64,000 bases of DNA from contig CAMZGS010000002.1 in the NCBI GenBank assembly GCA_947306475.1, positions 1-64,000 of the forward strand, written 5' to 3'. Below the pieces are notes generated by a model. The model had not been told where the DNA came from. It saw only the letters and a list, made by a program, of their open reading frames with translations, and did not search any database. This stretch comes from an uncultured Comamonas sp. GTDB lineage: Bacteria > Pseudomonadota > Gammaproteobacteria > Burkholderiales > Burkholderiaceae_C. Within the stretch, counting starts at the first letter, position 1. Each line of letters starts with the position of its first letter. This document shows, in pieces, positions 52,828 through 64,000 of the stretch. The position numbers and the translations under genes were made by a program.

Positions 52828-55800
52828 TTACACCTTCTCCACCTTCACGAGGAAGGTCTTGGATTCAGGGGTGAAGCTGTTGCCATCGCCCACAGACGCC
52901 GTCAGGTTGTTGGCCATGTAGCCCTTGCGACCTTGCGAGGTGAAGCCCCAGTGAATGGGTATGCCCACGTGGTGCACGGTCTTGCCGTCGATCTGCATCG
53001 GCTTGATGCGCTTGGTCACCACCGCCGCTGCCTTGACAAAGCCACGCTTGGAGCTGACCTTGACCCGCTGGCCGGTCTCGATGCCCAGTTCCCTGGCCAG
53101 GGCCTCGCCGATTTCCACGAACTGCTCGGGCTGAGTGATGTTGTTCAGCTGCACGTGCTTGGTCCAGTAGTGGAAGTGCTCGGTCAGGCGGTAGGTCGTG
53201 CCCACGTGCGGGAACTCCTTCGGATCGCCTGCCGAGTCCTTGGCCGATTCGAAGATGCGCGCTGCCGGGTTGATCACCGCCAGCGGGTTCTTCGGGTACA
53301 TCGGGTTGTAGCCCAGCGGGTTGTCGAAGGCCTCGTAGTGGGTCGGGAACGGTCCTTCGTTCATGCCCTTGCGCGAGAAGAAGCGTGCCACGCCCTCGGG
53401 GTTCATGATGAAGGGGTTGATGACCTCGGGGTCCAGCGTCGGGCCCACGTCCGGCACGTCGGCGCCCACCCAGCGGCTGCCGTTCCACTGGATCAGCACG
53501 CGCTCGGGGTTGAACGGCTTGCCCTGGCGGTCGCAGGATGCGCGGTTGTAGAGCACGCGGCGGTTGGCCGGCCAGGCCCAGGCCCAGTTGAGCGTGTTGC
53601 CGATGCCCGTGGGGTCGCTGTTGTCGCGGCGGGCCATCTGGTTGCCTGAAGAGGTCCAGCAGCCCGACCAGATCCAGCAGCCGCACGAGGTGGTGCCGTC
53701 GGCGCGCAGCTCGCCGAAACCGGCCAGCTGCTCGCCCGCCTTGCGGATGACCTTGCCTTCGGCATCCTTCAGATCGACCAGCGCACGACCGTTGTACTCC
53801 TTGGCGATTTCCTCGGGCGTGGGGTGCGCCGCCTGTGCGTAGGGCCAGTGCAGGTTGACGATGGGGTCGGGGAATGCGCCGCCTTCCTGCTCGTACAGCT
53901 TTTTCAGACGCAGGTGCAGGCCCGACATGATGGCAATGTCGGTCCTGGCCTCACCCGGTGCATCCGCAGCCTGCCAGTGCCACTGCAGCACGCGCGAGGA
54001 GCTGACGACGGCGCCTTCCTCTTCGGCAAAGCAGGTGGTGGGCAGACGGAACACCTCGGTCTGGATGCTGGCCGAATCCACGTCGTTGAACTCGCCGTGG
54101 TTCTTCCAGAACTCGGACGTTTCGGTGATCAGCGGATCCATCACCACGAGGAACTTGAGCTTCTTCAGGCCCTCGCGCACGTTGTTGGAGTTGGCCAGTG
54201 CCGCAATCGGGTTGAAGCCCTGGGCGATGTAGCCGTTGACCTTGCCCTGGTTCATCAGATCGACGATCTTGAGCATGTCGTAGGTCTGATCCAGCTTGGG
54301 CAGATAGTCGTAGGCCCAGTTGTTTTCCTCGGTGGCAGCCGGTCCCCACCAGGCCTTCATCAGGCTGACGTGGAACTTGGGATAGTTGGACCAGTAGTTC
54401 ATCTGGCCGGGACGCAGTGGCTTGGGCGTGCGTGTGGCGATGTACTGCTGGTAGTCCTGTTCCTTCTCGTTGGGCAGGCTCAGGTAGCCCGGCAGCGAGG
54501 CCGACAGGATGCCCAGGTCGGTCAGGCCCTGGATGTTGGAGTGACCGCGCAAGGCGTTCATGCCGCCACCGGCCACACCGATGTTGCCGCACAGCAGCTG
54601 CACCAGGGCACCTGTGCGCAGGATTTGCGCGCCGGTGGTGTGCTGGGTCCAGCCCAGGGCGTACATGATGGTGGCCACGCGCCCGGCCTGAGCGGTGGAA
54701 GCGAACTTCTCGCACACGTGCAGGAATTTTTCCTTGGGCGTGCCGCAGATGCTTTCCACCTTCTCCGGGGTGTAGCTGGCGTAGTGGCGCTTGAGCCACT
54801 GGTACACGCAGCGTGGGTGCTGCAGGGTGGGATCGACCTTGACAAAGCCGTCCTCGCCCAGCTCGTAGTCCCAGCTGGTCTTGTCGTAGGTGCGGGTCTC
54901 GGGGTTGTAGCCCGAGAAGATGCCCTCGTCGAAAGCGAAGTCCTCGCGCACGATGAAGGTGAAGTCCGTGTAGTTCTTCACGTACTCGTGGTGAATCTTG
55001 TCGTGCGTGAGCAGGTAATTGATGATGCCGCCCAGGAACACGATGTCCGAGCCCGAGCGAATCGGTGCATAGAAATCGGCTACTGCAGCAGAGCGGTTGA
55101 AGCGAGGATCGACCACCATGAAGTAGGCGCCGTTGTGCTCCTTGGCCTCGGTCACCCATTTGAAGCCGCACGGGTGCGCTTCAGCGGCATTGCCGCCCAT
55201 GATGAGGATGACATCCGCGTTCTTGATGTCCACCCAATGGTTTGTCATGGCTCCACGGCCAAACGTCGGGGCAAGACCTGCCACCGTCGGGCCGTGTCAG
55301 ACACGTGCTTGGTTATCGAGCGCCAGCAGACCCCAAGAGCGGGCCACCTTGTGCGTGACGTAACCGGCTTCGTTGCTGGAGGCCGAAGCGGCCAGCATGC
55401 CGGTGGTCAGCCAGCGGTTGACCGTCTGGCCTGCGGCGTTTTGCGCCTGGAAGTTGGCGTCACGGTCGTCCTTGAGCAGACGGGCGATGCGGTCCAGCGC
55501 CTCATCCCAGCTCATGCGCTTCCACTCGCTGGAGCCGGGAGCGCGGTACTCGGGGTACTTCAGGCGGTTGGGACTGTTGACAAAGTCCATCAGCGCCGCA
55601 CCCTTGGGGCACAGCGTGCCACGGTTGACGGGATGGTCCGGGTCACCTTCGACGTGCATCACGCTCAATTTGGCGTTGCGCACCCCATCGCTGTGGGAGT
55701 ACATCAGCAGGCCACAGCCCACCGAGCAGTACGTACAGGTCTGACGTGTGACCTTGGCCGCAGTAAGTTTGAACTGGCGAACCTCCGCGAGCGCAGCACT

Positions 55801-55887
55801 GGGCGAGAAGCCCAATACCGCCAGGCTGGATGCCGCCAGACTTGAGCCAGTCACTTGCATGAACTGGCGTCTGGAGAATTGCACCAT
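52828..55887 (-). CDS. fdnG: Formate dehydrogenase alpha subunit, selenoprotein with UGA-encoded Sec
   Basis: A 1019-aa periplasmic molybdo- or tungstopterin enzyme oxidising formate to CO2. An N-terminal twin-arginine signal (FSRRQFMQ then a hydrophobic run) exports it folded. A [4Fe-4S] site follows (CTYCSVGC...CPKG). Translation must pass an in-frame UGA at 55297-55299: the frame reads ALDNQARV-Sec-HGPTVAGLAPTFGRGAMTNHWVD, exactly the Sec context of E. coli FdnG, making Sec residue 197. The rest has the pterin-binding domains (QGFNPIAALANSNNVREGL, YNRASCDRQGKPFNPER). It would be misread as two genes if the UGA were taken as stop. It is first in the fdnGHI operon. Confidence 0.96.
55256..55299 (-). 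promoter_or_regulatory. SECIS element of fdnG
   Basis: Immediately after the UGA the minus strand has GGTGGCA-GGTCT-TGCCCC, a stem with apical loop GGTCT. The same loop sequence is found in the SECIS hairpins of E. coli fdhF and fdnG, where SelB contacts it. It lies about 18 bases after the UGA, within the usual distance. The flanking CGACG/CGACG words may add a lower stem. Identified by eye. Confidence 0.8.
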
Positions 55888-57070: not shown

Positions 57071-58879
57071 ATGCGCACCCAACTGAAAATCTGGCCCCTG
57101 GTGGCCGCCTGTTGCCTGGCCGTGGCTCCTTCGGTCTGGGCCGATGCCGCCTATGCCCTGTGGGGCACGCCCAAATACCCTGCAGGTTTTGCCCATTTTG
57201 ACTACGTCAATCCGCAGGCCCCCAAAGGCGGCACGCTGCGCCTGGTGAGCAGCTTTCGCACCTCGACGTTCGACAAATACAACCCCTTTACCGTCAAGGG
57301 CAGCGCACCGGCGTATCTGGCAACGCTGATGTTCGACAGTCTGCTGGCGGGCAGCATGGATGAGACGGCCACAGGCTACGGTCTGCTGGCCGAGGATGTG
57401 CAGGTGGCACCCGATCGTCTCTCGGTCACCTTCCGGCTGCGGCCCCAGGCGCGCTTTCACAACGGCGATCCGGTGCTGGCCGAGGATGTGAAGCACAGCT
57501 TTGACACGCTGGTCGGGCCGCACACCGCGCCGGGCTACAAGACCCTGCTCATTGATGTGGCCGGGGTGGACGTGCTGGATGCCCGCACGGTGCGCTTTCG
57601 CTTCAAGGTACCCAACCGGGAGTTACCTCTGACGGTGGGCAGCCTGCCCATCTTCAGCCGTGCCTGGGGGGCAGGCCTGCCATTCGATCAGGTGGTGATG
57701 CAGGAGCCCATTGGCAGCGGGCCGTATCGCATTGGCTCGGTGCGTTTTGGCAAGGACATCACCTATGTGCGCGATCCCAACTACTGGGCCAGGGACTTGC
57801 CGGTGCGCGTGGGGACGTACAACTTCGAGCGCATCGAAGTCAGGATTTACCAGGACAACACAGCCAGGTTGGAAGCACTCAAGGCAGGTGAATTTGATGT
57901 GATGCGTTTTTTCAGTGCCGGAGACTGGGCGCGGCGCCTGTTTGGCAAGAAATTCACCACGGGTGAGTTGGTCAAGGGGGAGTTTGAACACCAGTTGCCT
58001 ACCGGCTTTCAAAGCTACGTGCTCAATACGCGCCGCCCGTTTCTGCAGGACGTGCGCGTGCGTCAGGCGCTGGGTCTGGCGCTGGACTATGAATGGATGA
58101 ATCGCCAGATGTTCTATGGCGCCTACCGGCGCGTGAACGGCATCTTCGGGCACACCCCGTGTGAGACCACGGGCCTGCCCAGCGCCCAGGAGCGCGCCCT
58201 GCTGGCGCCGTACGCTCAGGATCTGCCGCCCGGCACGCTCGGGCCGATGACGGTGCCGCCCAGCACCCAGCCACCATCGAGCCTGCGTGACAACCTGCGC
58301 CAGGCACGTGCCCTGCTGGAGGAAGCCGGCTGGATGGTGCAGGACGGGGTGTTGCGCAATGCCCAGGGGCAGGCGCTGGAGCTGGAGTATCTGGATAGTG
58401 GCAGTGCGGGCCAGCGGGTGGTGGCGCCCTGGCAGCGCAATCTGCAAAAACTGGGCATCACCCTGCGCTTTCGTGCAGTGGACTTTGCCCTGTACCAGCA
58501 GCGTCTGCAGAAGTTCGACTTTGACATCACCAGCATCGCCTACCAGGGCAGCAACAACCCTGGGCAGGAGCTGGCCGATCTGTTTGGCAGCCAGGCCGCC
58601 GATCAGGAGGATTCCGGCAACTTCCCAGGCGTGAAAAATCCGGCGGTCGATGCCATGATTGAGCGCATCGTCTCGGCCAACACCCAGCAGGAGCTGCTGC
58701 CGGCCTGTCACGCGCTGGAGCGCGTCATTGCGCACGGGCACTACCTCATTCCCCAGTGGTACTCCAGCACACACCGCATGGCCTACAACGCCTGGAACCT
58801 GGCCGTGCCCAGCGTGCTGCCACCGTATGCCCCGGGGGAGGAATGGGTGATGCAGACTTGGTGGTCTAAAAAACCATAG
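57071..58879 (+). CDS. YejA-like ABC-transporter peptide-binding protein (family 5)
   Basis: A 602-aa exported solute-binding protein. A signal peptide ([26 protein letters not shown]) precedes the mature protein. SBP family 5 landmarks are [33 protein letters not shown] and [31 protein letters not shown]. Later [20 protein letters not shown] is typical of YejA, which binds oligopeptides including microcin C in enterobacteria. The permease and ATPase genes (yejBEF) are not next to it in this window. The stop TAG falls within the dispersed repeat. Confidence 0.9.
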
Positions 58880-58972
58880 CTGGAGGCGCTTTATCCATGC
58901 GGTCTAGAGCCTAAATACCTATAAAACATAGGTAAAAAAATACGGCTTCTTTGGACCAAGCGCCTAGCAGCA
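58866..58972. repeat. Dispersed intergenic palindromic repeat, copy 8
   Basis: The left arm aaaaaaccatagctggaggcgct and right arm accaagcgcctagcagcaggg enclose about 50 bases with the hairpin aatacctataaaacataggta. The TAG in cATAGct is the stop of the peptide-binding protein gene, as in copy 2. The SWIM gene begins 46 bases beyond. Confidence 0.8.
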
Positions 58973-59018: not shown

Positions 59019-60389
59019 ATGCAAATTACTGCTGAATCCGTGCTTGCTTTGGCACCCGATGCTGCTTCGGCCAAGGCAGCCAATGGATTGACCAAACTGA
59101 GCAATTGGCCTGTGTTGGGCGCCAACGAGGCGGCAGTATGGGGCGAGTGCGAAGGCAGCAGCCGCTATCGCACGCAGGTGGATTTGTCGGGACCTTCGTT
59201 CAAGTGCTCTTGTCCCAGTCGCAAATTTCCCTGCAAGCATGGTCTTGCTTTGCTGATGCTGTGGGCCAAAGACCCCGGACAGTTTCAGCAAGGCGAGGCG
59301 CCCCGTTGGGTCAGTGAATGGCTGCAGTCGCGTATGCAGCGCAGCCAGGAAAAAGAAGCCAAGCAGCGCGAGAAGGCCGAGCAAAAGGCAGCACAAAAGG
59401 CCGCCAATCCCCAATCTGAAGAAAGTGCCCAAAAGAGTGAGCAAAAGCGCTGGGCACGCATTGAAAAAGGCGTCTTGGAGCTGCAGCAGTGGCTCACAGA
59501 CCAGATCGCCCAGGGTTTGGGGCATCTGGGCGAGGGCAGCCGCGCTGCTTGGGAGAGCATGGCGGCGCGTTTGGTGGATGCCCAGGCGCCGGGCTTGGCA
59601 GCGCGCCTGCGCTACGCCGCTGAGGCTGTGCTCGATGGCCCCAATTGGCCTGAAAACGTGCTGCGCCGCCTAGGTCTGCTGCAGCTGGTCTGCGATGCCG
59701 TGGCCCAGCGAGCTGCCTTGGATGCCCGCGCTCAGGCCGATTTGCGCGCACTGCTGGGCTGGCCCTTGGACAAAGACAGCGTTTTGGCCCAAGCGCCACC
59801 AATCAGCGATGAGTGGTTGGTGTTGGGCGTGATACAGGAAGAGCGCGAGAACCGCTTGCTCGAGCGACGTGTGTGGCTGCATGGCCGCCATACCGGACTG
59901 CGCGCCTTTTTACTCGACCACACTTTTGCCGGGCGCTTGTTTGAGAGCAATTGGGTGGCACTCAGTACGGTGCAAGCGAACTTGGTCTTTTACCCCAGCG
60001 CAGCACCACTGCGTGCGCTGGTGGTGCACAGCCAAATTGGTGCTTCGCCTTCGCAAGTCCAGCAGCACTGGCCAGACAGCACCACCGCAGAGCACGAATG
60101 GCAGCAGATTGCACAACGTGTTGCCGCCAATCCATGGAGCCACTTGCACCCTGTGCGCTGCTGCGATGCCACGCTGCTGTGCGACGCGCAGGCTGGGGGC
60201 GTGGCTTTTCGCCTGCAATGGGACGACATGGTTTTACCGCTGCAATTGCACCCCAGCGACGGCTGGGCGTTGCTGGCGTTAAGCGGCGGCCAGCCCTTGC
60301 ATATTCAGGGTGAATGGGATGGCAATAGCTTGCGCCCACTGACTGCTATGGGTGCTGAAGGTATTTGGATTTGGACCCCCCGCGTATGA
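59019..60389 (+). CDS. SWIM zinc-finger protein, first gene of the AAA/DUF5682 cluster
   Basis: A 456-aa protein. The N-terminal 80 residues carry a SWIM domain with its zinc ligands Cys63, Cys65, Cys72 and His74 (CSCPSRKFPCKH). SWIM fingers bind nucleic acid or protein. A Lys/Glu/Ala-rich charged helix (about 110-150) follows. The C-terminal two thirds look helical, then beta-rich (WLVLGVIQEERENRLLERRVWL, LRALVVHSQIG), without a known motif. Use of non-preferred codons such as TTG is higher than in the AAA gene downstream. Its stop overlaps the next start (ATGA). I infer a substrate- or DNA-recognition role in the cluster. Confidence 0.8.
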   Translation: MQITAESVLALAPDAASAKAANGLTKLSNWPVLGANEAAVWGECEGSSRYRTQVDLSGPSFKCSCPSRKFPCKHGLALLMLWAKDPGQFQQGEAPRWVSEWLQSRMQRSQEKEAKQREKAEQKAAQKAANPQSEESAQKSEQKRWARIEKGVLELQQWLTDQIAQGLGHLGEGSRAAWESMAARLVDAQAPGLAARLRYAAEAVLDGPNWPENVLRRLGLLQLVCDAVAQRAALDARAQADLRALLGWPLDKDSVLAQAPPISDEWLVLGVIQEERENRLLERRVWLHGRHTGLRAFLLDHTFAGRLFESNWVALSTVQANLVFYPSAAPLRALVVHSQIGASPSQVQQHWPDSTTAEHEWQQIAQRVAANPWSHLHPVRCCDATLLCDAQAGGVAFRLQWDDMVLPLQLHPSDGWALLALSGGQPLHIQGEWDGNSLRPLTAMGAEGIWIWTPRV

Positions 60390-61984
60390 GTATTTTGCAC
60401 GCCCATACTCTTTGGAAAAGCCTACTGCCTGCCGCCATGGTGGGTACCGACAAAAAACCGTTGGAGCTGCCTGCCTGCGCAGGTGCGGTAGGCGACTTGT
60501 TGGCACAGTTGCCAGCGCGCGCCAGCACTCCGGCGCAGGCACTGCTGCAGGCAGCGGGTGTGCTCACGGTGTGTGAGCGCGCAGGCCAACGCCCTGTTGG
60601 TCAAATAGGTAGCAGTGCGCACGGCACAGCCCCTGCCGAGAGCAGCCAAGTGGTGCTGCAGCACAGCGCGTTGATCGATACCTTGCGCTGGCTGCTCAGT
60701 GATGCGCCGCTGCGCTTGCAAATCGAAGGCTTGCAGCAGGTGGCGGCGCGTGGCTGGTGTTTGCCCAATAGTTTGCTGCCCTTGGCTTTGGACAGCGGCG
60801 CGCGCTCTAGCATGCTGCGCCCTGCTGTCGTGGCGGTGCTGGGCGAGCGCGGCCGCTGGCTGGCGCGCCACCACAGTGCTTGGCGCTATGCCGTCGCCTC
60901 GGCAGAGACGGTGTCTGTGGAGCAGCGCTGGCAGGAGGGCTCTTTGGCTCAACGTGTACAAATCCTGCGCGAGGAGCGCAGGATTGCCCCGGCAGCGGCA
61001 CGAGAGCGTTTGCAGGCGGCCTTACCGGACTTGCCAGCCAAAGAGCGGCTTGAACTACTGGCCGAGCTGAAAGCAGGCCTGTCGGACGACGATGAGCCAT
61101 TGCTCGCTGCTCTGGCGCAGAAGGACAGGGGGCAGGAAGTACGTGATTTGGCGCGTAGTCTGTTGGTGCAGTTGCCACAAAGTGCCGCGACCCAAGCGGC
61201 TGTGGCGCGCCTGCAAGCCTGTCTGCATGTATCAGGGACACCAAGTCGCTGGCAGATTGAACCGCCACAGGCCGTGGACCCAGGTTGGGAAGAGCGCGGC
61301 ACCGAAAGCTCGCGTACCAAGCAGGAAGGCCTGGGTGAGCGCGCCATATGGCTGTACCGGGTGGTGCGCAGCGTGCCTTTGGCGTGGTGGCAGCAGTACA
61401 CCGGCATGGACCCTAAGGCCTTGTTGGAGTGGGCACGCCAGGGCGATTGGCAGGAGGCGCTGGTGCGTGCCTGGTGGGCTGTGCTGCGCGTGGCCCCTGA
61501 TGCTCAGTGGTGCCATGCGCTGCTGCAGCACTGGCCGGGCAGGGCTTTGCCCGACCAACCGGCAGCGGTGCTGGCGCTGCTGCCCACAGCACAGCGCGAG
61601 CCGTATTGGATGCAGACCCTGCAGCACATCGATGCAGCCAAAGCGCGCAGTTTCAATGATGTGGCCCAGCAGGTGCTGCACGCCTGTGCGCCGGGTGAGC
61701 ATGTCTCACCCGCTTTGTCGCAACTGCTGCTGCAAAAGCTGCTGCTGGCGCATCGCCGCGGATACTTGCTTTTCTCTGTCGATGAGCTGTGCTGTGTGCT
61801 GCATCCGACGTTGCTGCCGCTGCTGCGTGATGCAGAGGCACTGGATCGCCTGGTGCCGCCGCTGTCGGTGCCGGAGGCGGTATCGGACAAGCCTTTGATC
61901 TACTCGCTGGACAAGGTGCTGGGCCGTAGCCAGCAAGTCATTGCTGCCCGCTGTGTCTTGGAGCAGTTGCCCGCGGCCAGATAG
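60386..61984 (+). CDS. DUF5691-family protein
   Basis: A 532-aa soluble protein of the DUF5691 family, which is built from helical repeats. Landmarks are WKSLLPAAMVGTDKKPLELP at the start, LPNSLLPLALDSGARSSMLRPAVVAVLGERGRWLARH in the first third, and ALLEWARQGDWQEALVRAWWAVLRVAPDAQW in the second half, followed by many short helices. HEAT-like repeats suggest a scaffold or adaptor. The start at 60386 overlaps the SWIM gene's stop by four bases, which means coupled translation. Homologues are known to me only from neighbourhoods with a MoxR ATPase and DUF5682. No catalytic residues can be named. Confidence 0.75.
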   Translation: MSILHAHTLWKSLLPAAMVGTDKKPLELPACAGAVGDLLAQLPARASTPAQALLQAAGVLTVCERAGQRPVGQIGSSAHGTAPAESSQVVLQHSALIDTLRWLLSDAPLRLQIEGLQQVAARGWCLPNSLLPLALDSGARSSMLRPAVVAVLGERGRWLARHHSAWRYAVASAETVSVEQRWQEGSLAQRVQILREERRIAPAAARERLQAALPDLPAKERLELLAELKAGLSDDDEPLLAALAQKDRGQEVRDLARSLLVQLPQSAATQAAVARLQACLHVSGTPSRWQIEPPQAVDPGWEERGTESSRTKQEGLGERAIWLYRVVRSVPLAWWQQYTGMDPKALLEWARQGDWQEALVRAWWAVLRVAPDAQWCHALLQHWPGRALPDQPAAVLALLPTAQREPYWMQTLQHIDAAKARSFNDVAQQVLHACAPGEHVSPALSQLLLQKLLLAHRRGYLLFSVDELCCVLHPTLLPLLRDAEALDRLVPPLSVPEAVSDKPLIYSLDKVLGRSQQVIAARCVLEQLPAAR

Positions 61985-62052
61985 GTACGCATGCCGCATT
62001 TCCCCATTTTTTTTTCTTGCCCCTTGGAATTTGTCGCTTCCGAAAGATTGTC

Positions 62053-63138
62053 ATGAGCACCACCGAAGCCTTGCGCCAACACGCCGAACACCAATTTGCC
62101 CAAGAGCTCGATGAGCTGCAAAAGGCCGACACCCATGCCCGCCCAGCCAATTGGCGGCTCTCGCCCTGGGCAGTGGTCACTTACCTGATGGGCGGCAAGC
62201 TCGACAACGGTTTTGAGGTCAGCGCCAAATACATTGGCAGTCGGCGTTTGATGGAAATTGCCGTGGCCACTTTGGCCACCGACCGCGCCCTGCTGCTGTA
62301 CGGCGTGCCCGGCACGGCCAAGTCCTGGGTGTCGGAGCACCTGGCAGCGGCCATCAGCGGCGACTCCACCTTGCTGATCCAGGGCACGGCCGGCACCAGT
62401 GAGGAGCAGCTGCGCTACGGCTGGAACTACGCCCAGCTGCTGGCGCATGGCCCCTCAGAAAAAGCCCTGGTGCCCAGCCCGCTGATGCATGCCATGAAGA
62501 ACGGCAGGATCGCCCGCGTCGAAGAGCTCACGCGCATCCCGGCCGACGTGCAGGACACCCTGATTACCGTGCTCTCGGAAAAATCGTTGCCCATTCCCGA
62601 ACTGGGCACACAGGTGCAGGCCACGCGTGGCTTCAGCGTGATTGCCACGGCCAACAACCGCGACAAGGGCGTCAACGAACTCTCCGCTGCGCTCAAGCGC
62701 CGCTTCAACACCGTGGTGCTGCCCGTGCCTGCCACCGAGGAGGAGGAAGTGGCCATCGTCGTCAAGCGCGTCAGCGAGATGGGCCGGGCGTTGCAACTGC
62801 CCGCCGAGCCGCCTGCGCTCAAGGAAGTGCGCCGCATCGTGCAGATCTTCCGCGAGCTGCGCAGTGGCCGCACCGTGGATGGCAAGACCCAGCTCAAGAC
62901 GCCCAGCTCCTCGCTGTCCACCGCCGAGGCGATTTCCGTCATCAACAACGGCATGGCACTGGCCGGGCACTTTGGCGATGGCGTGCTGCACCCGCACGAC
63001 GTGGCCGCTGGCCTGATTGGCGCCGTGGTCAAGGACCCGGTGCAGGACGCCGTGGTCTGGAAGGAGTACCTGGACATCGTGGTCAAGGAGCGCGAGGACT
63101 GGAAGAGCCTGTACCGCGCCTGCAAGGAACTCGAATAA
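62053..63138 (+). CDS. MoxR-type AAA+ ATPase
   Basis: A 361-aa AAA+ protein. Walker A is GVPGTAKS (84-91), the MoxR form with AKS/T. The Walker B position reads RIARVEEL, in which the usual Asp before the Glu is replaced, though the catalytic Glu remains. Sensor 1 is IATANNRDKGVNELS and the arginine-finger/sensor 2 region is ALKRRFNTVVLP. MoxR ATPases act as chaperones, often together with a von Willebrand factor A protein that binds metal; such a partner would be expected past the window end. Codon use is strongly biased to preferred codons, unlike the two genes before it. It starts at 62053; the frame is open a further 12 codons upstream. Confidence 0.88.
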   Translation: MSTTEALRQHAEHQFAQELDELQKADTHARPANWRLSPWAVVTYLMGGKLDNGFEVSAKYIGSRRLMEIAVATLATDRALLLYGVPGTAKSWVSEHLAAAISGDSTLLIQGTAGTSEEQLRYGWNYAQLLAHGPSEKALVPSPLMHAMKNGRIARVEELTRIPADVQDTLITVLSEKSLPIPELGTQVQATRGFSVIATANNRDKGVNELSAALKRRFNTVVLPVPATEEEEVAIVVKRVSEMGRALQLPAEPPALKEVRRIVQIFRELRSGRTVDGKTQLKTPSSSLSTAEAISVINNGMALAGHFGDGVLHPHDVAAGLIGAVVKDPVQDAVVWKEYLDIVVKEREDWKSLYRACKELE

Positions 63139-63150
63139 CGGGCCGCTGCC

Positions 63151-64000
63151 GTGAGCAAAGTCCCCGAAGCCCCCAAAGTCCACTACTTCGGCATTCGCCA
63201 CCACGGGCCGGGCTGTGCGCGCAGCCTGGTGCGTGCCTTTGAGCAGTTGCAGCCAGACTGCGTGTTGGTCGAAGGCCCGCCCGAGGCCGAAGGCGTGCTG
63301 CCGGCCCTGCTGTCCGAGCAGATGCAGCCGCCGGTGGCGCTGCTGAGCTACTGCCCCGATGAGCCCAAGTGGGCGGTGTACCACCCGTTTGCTGTGTTCT
63401 CGCCCGAGTGGCAGGCGTTGCGCTGGGCGCTGATGCAGCAGGTGCCGGTGTTCTTCATCGACCTGCCACTGATCCACCAGCTGGCGCAGGCCAAGGCGCG
63501 TGAGGAGGAACAGGCCCAGGCAGAAGCCCAGGATGGCGATGCGGATGCCGAGGCCAGTGCCTCCACCGAGCAGGCCGGGGACACCCCTGCCGAGCCCGGC
63601 TACCGCAGCGATCCCCTGAACTGGCTGGCCCAGGCTGCCGGCTACGCCGACGGCGAAAGCTGGTGGAACCACACCGTGGAAGAGCGTGGCGATGGCGAGG
63701 CGCTGTTTGCCGCCATTGCCGAAGCCATGACCACCCTGCGTGCCGATCTGGGCGAGCAGGCGCAGGAGCCCTGCCCCTACCGTGCCCGCCGCGAGCAGCT
63801 GCGCGAGGCCTACATGCGCCAGCGCATCCGCGAGGCCGTGAAAAAAGGCTACGAGCGCATTGCCGTGGTCTGTGGTGCCTGGCACCTGGGTGGTCTGCAA
63901 GCCAAGGTCAAGGCCAGCGCCGACAGCGCCTTGCTCAAGGGCCTGCCCAAGCTCAAGGTGCAATCGACGTGGGTGCCCTGGACCTACCGCCACCTCACGC
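63151..64000 (+). CDS. DUF5682-family protein, truncated by the window end
   Basis: A GTG start 12 bases after the AAA gene opens a frame that continues past base 64000 (283 codons visible). Landmarks of the DUF5682 family are YFGIRHHGPGCARSLVRAFEQLQPDCVLVEGPPEAE at the N-terminus, an Asp/Glu-rich insertion near residue 125-150, NWLAQAAGYADGESWWNHTVEE and CGAWHLGGLQAK. The conserved HHGPG and EGPPE motifs suggest a metal-binding or hydrolytic core like the ChaN/TraB/EreA superfamily, whose members share the EG-x-H arrangement; this is inference. Only the 3' part is missing. Confidence 0.85.
   Translation, partial: MSKVPEAPKVHYFGIRHHGPGCARSLVRAFEQLQPDCVLVEGPPEAEGVLPALLSEQMQPPVALLSYCPDEPKWAVYHPFAVFSPEWQALRWALMQQVPVFFIDLPLIHQLAQAKAREEEQAQAEAQDGDADAEASASTEQAGDTPAEPGYRSDPLNWLAQAAGYADGESWWNHTVEERGDGEALFAAIAEAMTTLRADLGEQAQEPCPYRARREQLREAYMRQRIREAVKKGYERIAVVCGAWHLGGLQAKVKASADSALLKGLPKLKVQSTWVPWTYRHLT

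Follow-up and report, generated by a model that had tools for sequence, protein, structure and literature searches.

The 64,000-nucleotide stretch of an uncultured Comamonas sp. contig analysed here (G000:C2:1-64000; the window) breaks off inside a run of genes for a SWIM zinc-finger protein, a DUF5691 protein, a MoxR-type AAA+ ATPase and a DUF5682 protein, which raises the question of whether these genes form one system and what that system might do. An earlier reading made from the letters alone (the sequence-only reading) had placed the four genes on one strand with two tight junctions, predicted a VWA gene beyond position 64000 and named the set as the leading candidate for a new defence or quality-control system. 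All four were found on the + strand at the positions claimed: SWIM at 59019-60389 (456 amino acids (aa); Pfam SWIM 24.3 bits against a cut-off of 19.6), DUF5691 at 60386-61984 (532 aa; Pfam 373 bits), the YehL-related MoxR at 62053-63138 (Pfam AAA_5 131.8 bits) and DUF5682 from a GTG start at 63151 to 64000, the first 283 of its 787 residues lying in the window (Pfam 884 bits for the whole protein). The MoxR open reading frame (ORF) opens with TTG at 62017, the likely start being the ATG at 62053.

To complete the cassette, the contig was read past position 64000. DUF5682 ends at G000:C2:65514, and a fifth gene fully beyond the window encodes the predicted VWA protein, a VWA_CoxE protein of 415 aa (G000:C2:65511-66758, + strand; Pfam 180.8 bits). 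Both claimed junctions were seen in the sequence, an ATGA overlap of SWIM and DUF5691 at 60386-60389 and a 12-base gap between the MoxR stop (63138) and the DUF5682 start (63151); a further ATGA overlap joins the DUF5682 stop to the VWA start codon (C2:65511). The genes downstream of VWA encode a chemotaxis receptor and a GGDEF protein, and the cassette therefore consists of five genes.

Relatives were collected by a scan at one genome per species, and the best 80 of 573 confirmed loci (592 pattern matches) were analysed; the sample leans to the window type because the first row of the query was the window protein. Seventy of the 80 loci have enough flank (at least 4.2 kb before and at least 1 kb after DUF5682), and 69 of these hold SWIM, DUF5691, MoxR, DUF5682 and VWA together, 67 of them in this order on a single strand. 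This co-occurrence exceeds chance and bears out the earlier view of the genes as one travelling set. Genes usually lying apart, or unrelated genes coming next, had been named as what would speak against it; instead, the VWA gene adjoins and the set co-occurs. The other ten loci were excluded as truncated (L043, L054, L055, L065, L069, L083, L095, L105, L107 and L111). Across all 80 loci, the order of the families present is broken in three: the SWIM-DUF5691 pair has the opposite orientation in two Streptomycetaceae (L104 and L109), and the VWA gene lies upstream in L095. SWIM and DUF5691 are fused as a single ORF in 4 of the 69 loci (L047, L064, L084 and L093). The hosts, with phyla assigned from the names in record titles, include Pseudomonadota, Cyanobacteriota, Bacteroidota, Verrucomicrobiota, Planctomycetota, Chloroflexota, Actinomycetota and Acidobacteriota. 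Plasmid records from Deinococcus, Rhizobium and Methylosinus have the identical gene order by their own annotation; the Methylosinus record lists no VWA gene, in a gene table that may be incomplete, and the Deinococcus record has a small hypothetical gene ahead of DUF5682.

Closer to the source, DUF5682 was present in 26 of the 41 genomes searched in the genus and in 12/100 genomes of the family, the latter twelve dividing evenly between the window type and the Escherichia coli type described below (six each). All five genes are present in four of the six window-type loci (L002, L017, L018 and L020); the remaining two are L019, on a short contig, and L016, which is taken up below. DUF5691 scored above cut-off in 6/299 genomes of the phylum. 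Among 23 Burkholderiales loci, a shared flank gene (any of the four nearest genes per side, at least 45% identity over 60%) was found in 13 of 253 pairs, and the cassette is therefore located at many sites. One broad cluster of flank ORFs recurs in 12 loci, and every other cluster is confined to at most 5 of the 80. Matches occurred in 35 of 72,556 plasmid records, several of them chromosome-sized.

E. coli K-12 carries a related set in the order yehI (DUF4132), yehL (MoxR), yehM (DUF5682), yehP (VWA) and yehQ (SWIM). Comparison by phmmer matched the window proteins MoxR to YehL (E 6e-70), DUF5682 to YehM (E 5e-32) and VWA to YehP (E 5e-71), and the stretch common to the SWIM protein and YehQ is the zinc finger only (hhalign probability 9.8%). 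DUF5691 was not detected in E. coli among the control genomes. Five window-type Bacteroidota loci (L061, L074, L075, L097 and L100) carry an added protein of the YehI kind, which in L061, the one locus scanned of the five, is DUF4132 by Pfam. DUF4132 proteins also adjoin the core in plasmid copies from Iodobacter, Sinorhizobium and Streptomyces, the gene following DUF5682 in the Streptomyces record being annotated as hypothetical. Taken together, the window-type and E. coli-type gene sets indicate a constant trio of MoxR, DUF5682 and VWA, with the helical and SWIM proteins as exchangeable partners. Of 5426 E. coli genomes, 5162 contain the yehL-yehQ region with a coverage of at least 80%. No functional study of YehL, YehM, YehP or YehQ was present among the literature matches listed, and no reaction is assigned in the literature searched; the earlier statement that no member of the set has an assigned reaction thus held in these searches, although the set does have known relatives in yehL, yehM and yehP.

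Further arrangements were seen in single loci. In a Fusobacterium cassette (L178:4515-12476, + strand), a 637-aa protein with no Pfam match replaces DUF5691, and an upstream ORF resembles a DNA methylase as judged by eye only. An SMI1/KNR4 (SUKH) gene lies between MoxR and DUF5682 in an E. coli-type cassette (L026:8133-8567, + strand). A 14-kb fecal scaffold labelled "UNVERIFIED" and named as a bacteriophage (L175; MT835988.1) encodes MoxR, DUF5682, VWA, DUF5717, DUF5716 and an MgsA-type ATPase; it is the only match among phage records and is probably bacterial in origin. DUF5716 and DUF5717 may represent a partner set of a third kind.

The division into constant and variable parts is also apparent from conservation rates, which were determined for 23 genomes (253 pairs) with RecA from the same genomes as a yardstick. 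Mean pairwise identity was 72.1% for MoxR, 62.3% for VWA, 47.4% for DUF5682, 38.1% for SWIM and 26.4% for DUF5691, compared with 62.3% for RecA. Identity was above that of RecA in 240 pairs for MoxR, 124 for VWA, 7 for DUF5682 and none for either SWIM or DUF5691. The five genes co-diverge (r 0.77-0.94 over 66 loci), and because they have a single shared history, the rate contrast reflects constraint and not merely recent transfer. As judged from sequence, the contrast reflects what would be a rigid motor (MoxR) alongside fast-changing, putative recognition parts.

The sequence-only reading had suggested that DUF5682 be compared with TraB/EreA folds. The hallmarks of the TIKI/TraB group, namely two GxxH-type motifs, a Glu after strand 2 and an Arg before the second motif, are present in DUF5682, all on the + strand of the window. 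The first motif (G14-I-R-H17, followed by H18; 63190-63204) has its H17 in 93/93 proteins and H18 in 92/93 (Leu in L056), with G14 replaced by Pro in three E. coli-type members (L022-L024). Glu41, in an E-G-P motif (63271-63279), is present in 93/93 proteins and lies 24 residues past H17 in 89 measurable rows out of 100. The R218-E-x-x-M222 motif (63802-63816) retains R218 in 95/95 aligned ORFs and both E219 and M222 in 93/95, both exceptions coming from fragments of split genes (L038 and L063). In the second GxxH motif (G242-A-W-H245; 63874-63885), H245 is present in 93/93 proteins and lies 27 residues past the Arg in 75 of the 89 measured. All four residues, His17, Glu41, Arg218 and His245, are thus conserved in 93/93 proteins, including E. 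coli YehM, with the order and spacing of TraB and ChaN. A structure model made on a close relative (predicted local distance difference test (pLDDT) 87.8) revealed an alpha/beta core followed by a helical C-terminal domain, which falls outside the window, and its best alpha/beta matches pointed towards TraB proteins. The motifs and the model argue that the N-terminal domain of DUF5682 is probably a hydrolase of the TIKI/TraB type. Neither this putative assignment nor the five-gene cassette was found in print, and no paper was found on DUF5691 or DUF5682, in searches reaching a minority of subscription journals.

The MoxR protein shares 39.7% identity with YehL over 353 aa (E 1e-76), compared with E 1.1 for RavA and E 1.2 or worse for the host's own AAA_3 MoxR, and is closer to YehL than to either, tree placement being weak from long branches. 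MoxR-VWA pairs and the YehL group have already been described (PMC3893208). Among 89 MoxR ORFs, the Walker B, sensor 1 and arginine finger patterns were found in all 89 and the Walker A pattern in 83, being missed in L065, L084, L094, L098, L104 and L109. The metal ion-dependent adhesion site (MIDAS) pattern D.S.S[MI] is present in 87/88 VWA ORFs, and a Pfam scan of the VWA protein gave no extra effector domain. None of the five proteins scored above an NCBIfam cut-off, the nearest for MoxR being MadB_ATPase (54.8 bits against 475), and Pfam bpMoxR reached 21.9 bits, below its cut-off of 27. The SWIM protein contains the zinc ligands CSCPSRKFPCKH at residues 63-74; the pattern C.CPSRKFPC.H occurs in 71/77 SWIM ORFs and the looser C.C..C.H in 76/77, and the ligands were also seen in a 17-row alignment. 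An AlphaFold2 model of DUF5691 (pLDDT 88.0) is a nearly all-helical repeat, with no clear match in the PDB. The sensor-adaptor role proposed earlier for these two proteins fits with their being the least conserved of the five, as an adaptor might be.

The favoured reading of these observations is a MoxR-VWA remodelling or quality-control machine with DUF5682 as its hydrolase part, a mechanism that, taken as a whole, we regard as falling a little short of an even chance. In this machine, the MoxR protein would form an ATPase ring and the VWA protein would capture a client peptide via its metal site. DUF5682 would contribute a hydrolase domain of the TIKI/TraB type at its N terminus, with a helical-repeat arm behind it, and clients would be chosen by SWIM and DUF5691 or, in the E. 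coli type, by DUF4132 and YehQ. Turnover of ATP might then either bring the client up to the hydrolase or set the hydrolase free to act, which would make the assembly similar to an ATP-driven processing or quality-control protease. We infer the hydrolysis, the presentation of clients, the adaptor role of SWIM and DUF5691 and the quality-control purpose alike. Of the two purposes named in the sequence-only reading, quality control is the better fit. Put more generally, and more tentatively still, the cassette may belong to a widespread, unnamed kind of ATP-driven processing machine in which a MoxR-VWA motor and a TIKI-fold hydrolase (DUF5682/YehM) are combined with exchangeable recognition modules: SWIM with DUF5691, DUF4132 with YehQ, perhaps DUF5716/DUF5717, and an HSP90-like protein with a TPR protein added in two relatives.

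The last of these modules was seen at L017:11569-15797 (- strand) and L036:5670-9947 (+ strand), where an HSP90-like gene and the gene of a sub-threshold TPR protein occupy the MoxR/DUF5682 interval on the cassette strand. The HSP90-like protein of L036 scored 35.5 bits with Pfam HSP90 and 35.9 bits with HATPase_c_3, and an HSP90 gene (438.8 bits) lies upstream of SWIM in L035. The HSP90-type genes at these three loci point to protein folding or turnover.

Several results weigh against such a machine. Few loci carry chaperone genes (within the cassette in 2 and upstream of it in 1 of 93 examined), and the TPR protein was found in 1/120 family genomes, this one being its own source. Some members lack parts: L088 (Calothrix), the sole exception among the 70 loci, has DUF5682 alone; the cyanobacterial loci L043 and L054 have no VWA gene despite nearly 10 kb downstream; and L016 has no VWA match downstream. 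The hydrolase assignment, for which the motifs and the TraB-pointing matches speak, gained no significant support from Foldseek, Pfam or profile comparison. No Foldseek match to the DUF5682 model reached E 0.001, Pfam at E 1 matched the window protein to DUF5682 only and to no TIKI-type family, and no TraB, ChaN or Ere family was present among the families listed (25 of 39) for 54 relatives. Profile comparisons with TraB and ChaN were not significant (probability 0.5 and 3.3%, and 0.7 and 1.3% in an earlier run). Furthermore, we know of no client, activity or phenotype for the system.

An anti-phage or conflict system, in which a MoxR-VWA switch would free DUF5682 as a toxic hydrolase once SWIM and DUF5691 sense an invader, is unlikely but is the best of the alternatives. 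The patchy spread in the family and phylum, the plasmid matches and the varied insertion sites would suit it, the Iodobacter plasmid copy adjoins a type I restriction system, and MoxR-VWA ternary conflict systems have been described (PMC7159879), some of them CRISPR-linked (PMC10910872). The suggested check for defence islands took the form of a PADLOC scan (E 1e-10) of 113 flank proteins from 27 loci, drawn from 175 candidates in 31 loci. Matches fell into 41 families, of which the 25 listed have one member each, including Cas7f, Cas5f, Cas6f, AbiEii, DrmC, mad3/mad8, AriA and DndA/SspA; some flank proteins thus match defence models, but in a scan with no control set these single matches show no enrichment, and the flank families are mainly ordinary among those listed (25 of 145). 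Within the cassette, the only PADLOC 2.0 match was IetA (E 0.0009), over 34 residues around Walker A, and Pfam on the five proteins found no VMAP, iSTAND, FtsH or beta-propeller family, the published third components. Of 40 viral-contig stretches with a pattern match, none was confirmed as a relative. The conservation of yehL-yehQ throughout E. coli and of MoxR above RecA argues against defence. Near-universal presence in a species and above-RecA conservation are unlike most defence genes, and the earlier ranking of the cassette as the leading candidate for a new defence system is not sustained.

Somewhat less probable again is a dedicated maturation factor that, like CoxD-CoxE or RavA-ViaA, inserts a cofactor or assembles one enzyme complex, with DUF5682 as trimmer or scaffold. 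The VWA protein does belong to Pfam VWA_CoxE, known MoxR-VWA pairs serve enzyme maturation (PMC3893208 and PMC7159879), and a molybdopterin oxidoreductase gene is close by in the window. However, no recurrent target enzyme was seen among the flank genes, whose clusters, the broad one in 12 loci aside, each reach at most 5 of the 80 loci, and the molybdopterin oxidoreductase is therefore probably a chance neighbour. Maturation factors are frequently encoded beside their target. Least likely is a catalytically dead DUF5682 serving as a mere structural scaffold of a chaperone, for although a TIKI-fold protein lacking catalytic residues has been described (PMC6254334) and no DUF5682 activity is known, H17, E41, R218 and H245 are retained in 93/93 proteins, including YehM.

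The surroundings of the cassette were also inspected. In Deinococcus, loss of DdrO induces DUF4132 and WGR genes (PMC8533742), which was the source of a lead on upstream regulation. A scan of 71 upstream stretches gave counts of 0 and 0 for two kinds of LexA motif, 1 for an RDRM-like box and 0, 0 and 0 for Fnr, CIRCE and heat-shock promoter motifs, against expectations of 0.05, 0.25, 1.2, 0, 0 and 0 from simple shuffles; SOS or heat control was dropped, these counts not being above the shuffles. An inverted repeat, TACCTAT-AAAAC-ATAGGTA, lies at window positions 58916-58934 between a solute-binding gene and SWIM and may be an operator or due to chance; inspection by eye of the stretch upstream of the cassette in L032 revealed none of the same kind. 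The solute-binding gene (family 5; about 57100-58879) ends 139 bases ahead of the cassette, and genes for two permeases and a double ATPase belonging to the same kind of transporter lie ∼12 kb further along (G000:C2 70862-74566). The cassette may have inserted into one transport operon, splitting it. The molybdopterin oxidoreductase gene (52828-55887, - strand) consists of two ORFs with an in-frame TGA between them (...NQARV*HGPTVAGLAPTFGRG...). We take it to be formate dehydrogenase-like and the TGA to stand at the selenocysteine site of such enzymes; the protein is probably a selenoprotein.

If the proposed processing machine is real, it would add another type to the AAA+-coupled hydrolases and would supply E. 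coli yehLMPQ with a function. Almost every E. coli strain carries its core, which also occurs in many phyla, has an ATPase above RecA in conservation and is without an assigned reaction in the literature searched. The constant, proposed motor-hydrolase core is set apart from exchangeable recognition parts, and the candidate catalytic residues in DUF5682/YehM make the function testable by four point mutants.

Comparison with known systems places the cassette among, but distinct from, other MoxR-VWA assemblies. Like the MoxR-vWA ternary conflict systems (PMC7159879), it combines MoxR and VWA with a constant third protein and variable partners, but the third part is VMAP, iSTAND, FtsH or a beta-propeller there and DUF5682 here, and the E. 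coli form shows that the cassette core is not limited to multicellular bacteria. CoxD-CoxE and RavA-ViaA likewise consist of a MoxR/VWA pair with a VWA_CoxE domain; to this the cassette adds DUF5682, SWIM and DUF5691, and its MoxR resembles RavA only at E 1.1. With the TIKI, TraB, ChaN and Ere proteins, DUF5682 has in common the order and spacing of GxxH, E, R and GxxH and, in the model, an alpha/beta core that may be theirs; it differs in having no Pfam match to them, an extra helical C-terminal domain, HH.P in the first motif and a link to MoxR. The nearest counterpart is the E. coli yehL-yehM-yehP-yehQ operon, which has homologous MoxR, DUF5682 and VWA in the same order together with a SWIM protein, but in which SWIM (YehQ) comes last and DUF4132 proteins (yehI/yehF) stand upstream in place of DUF5691.

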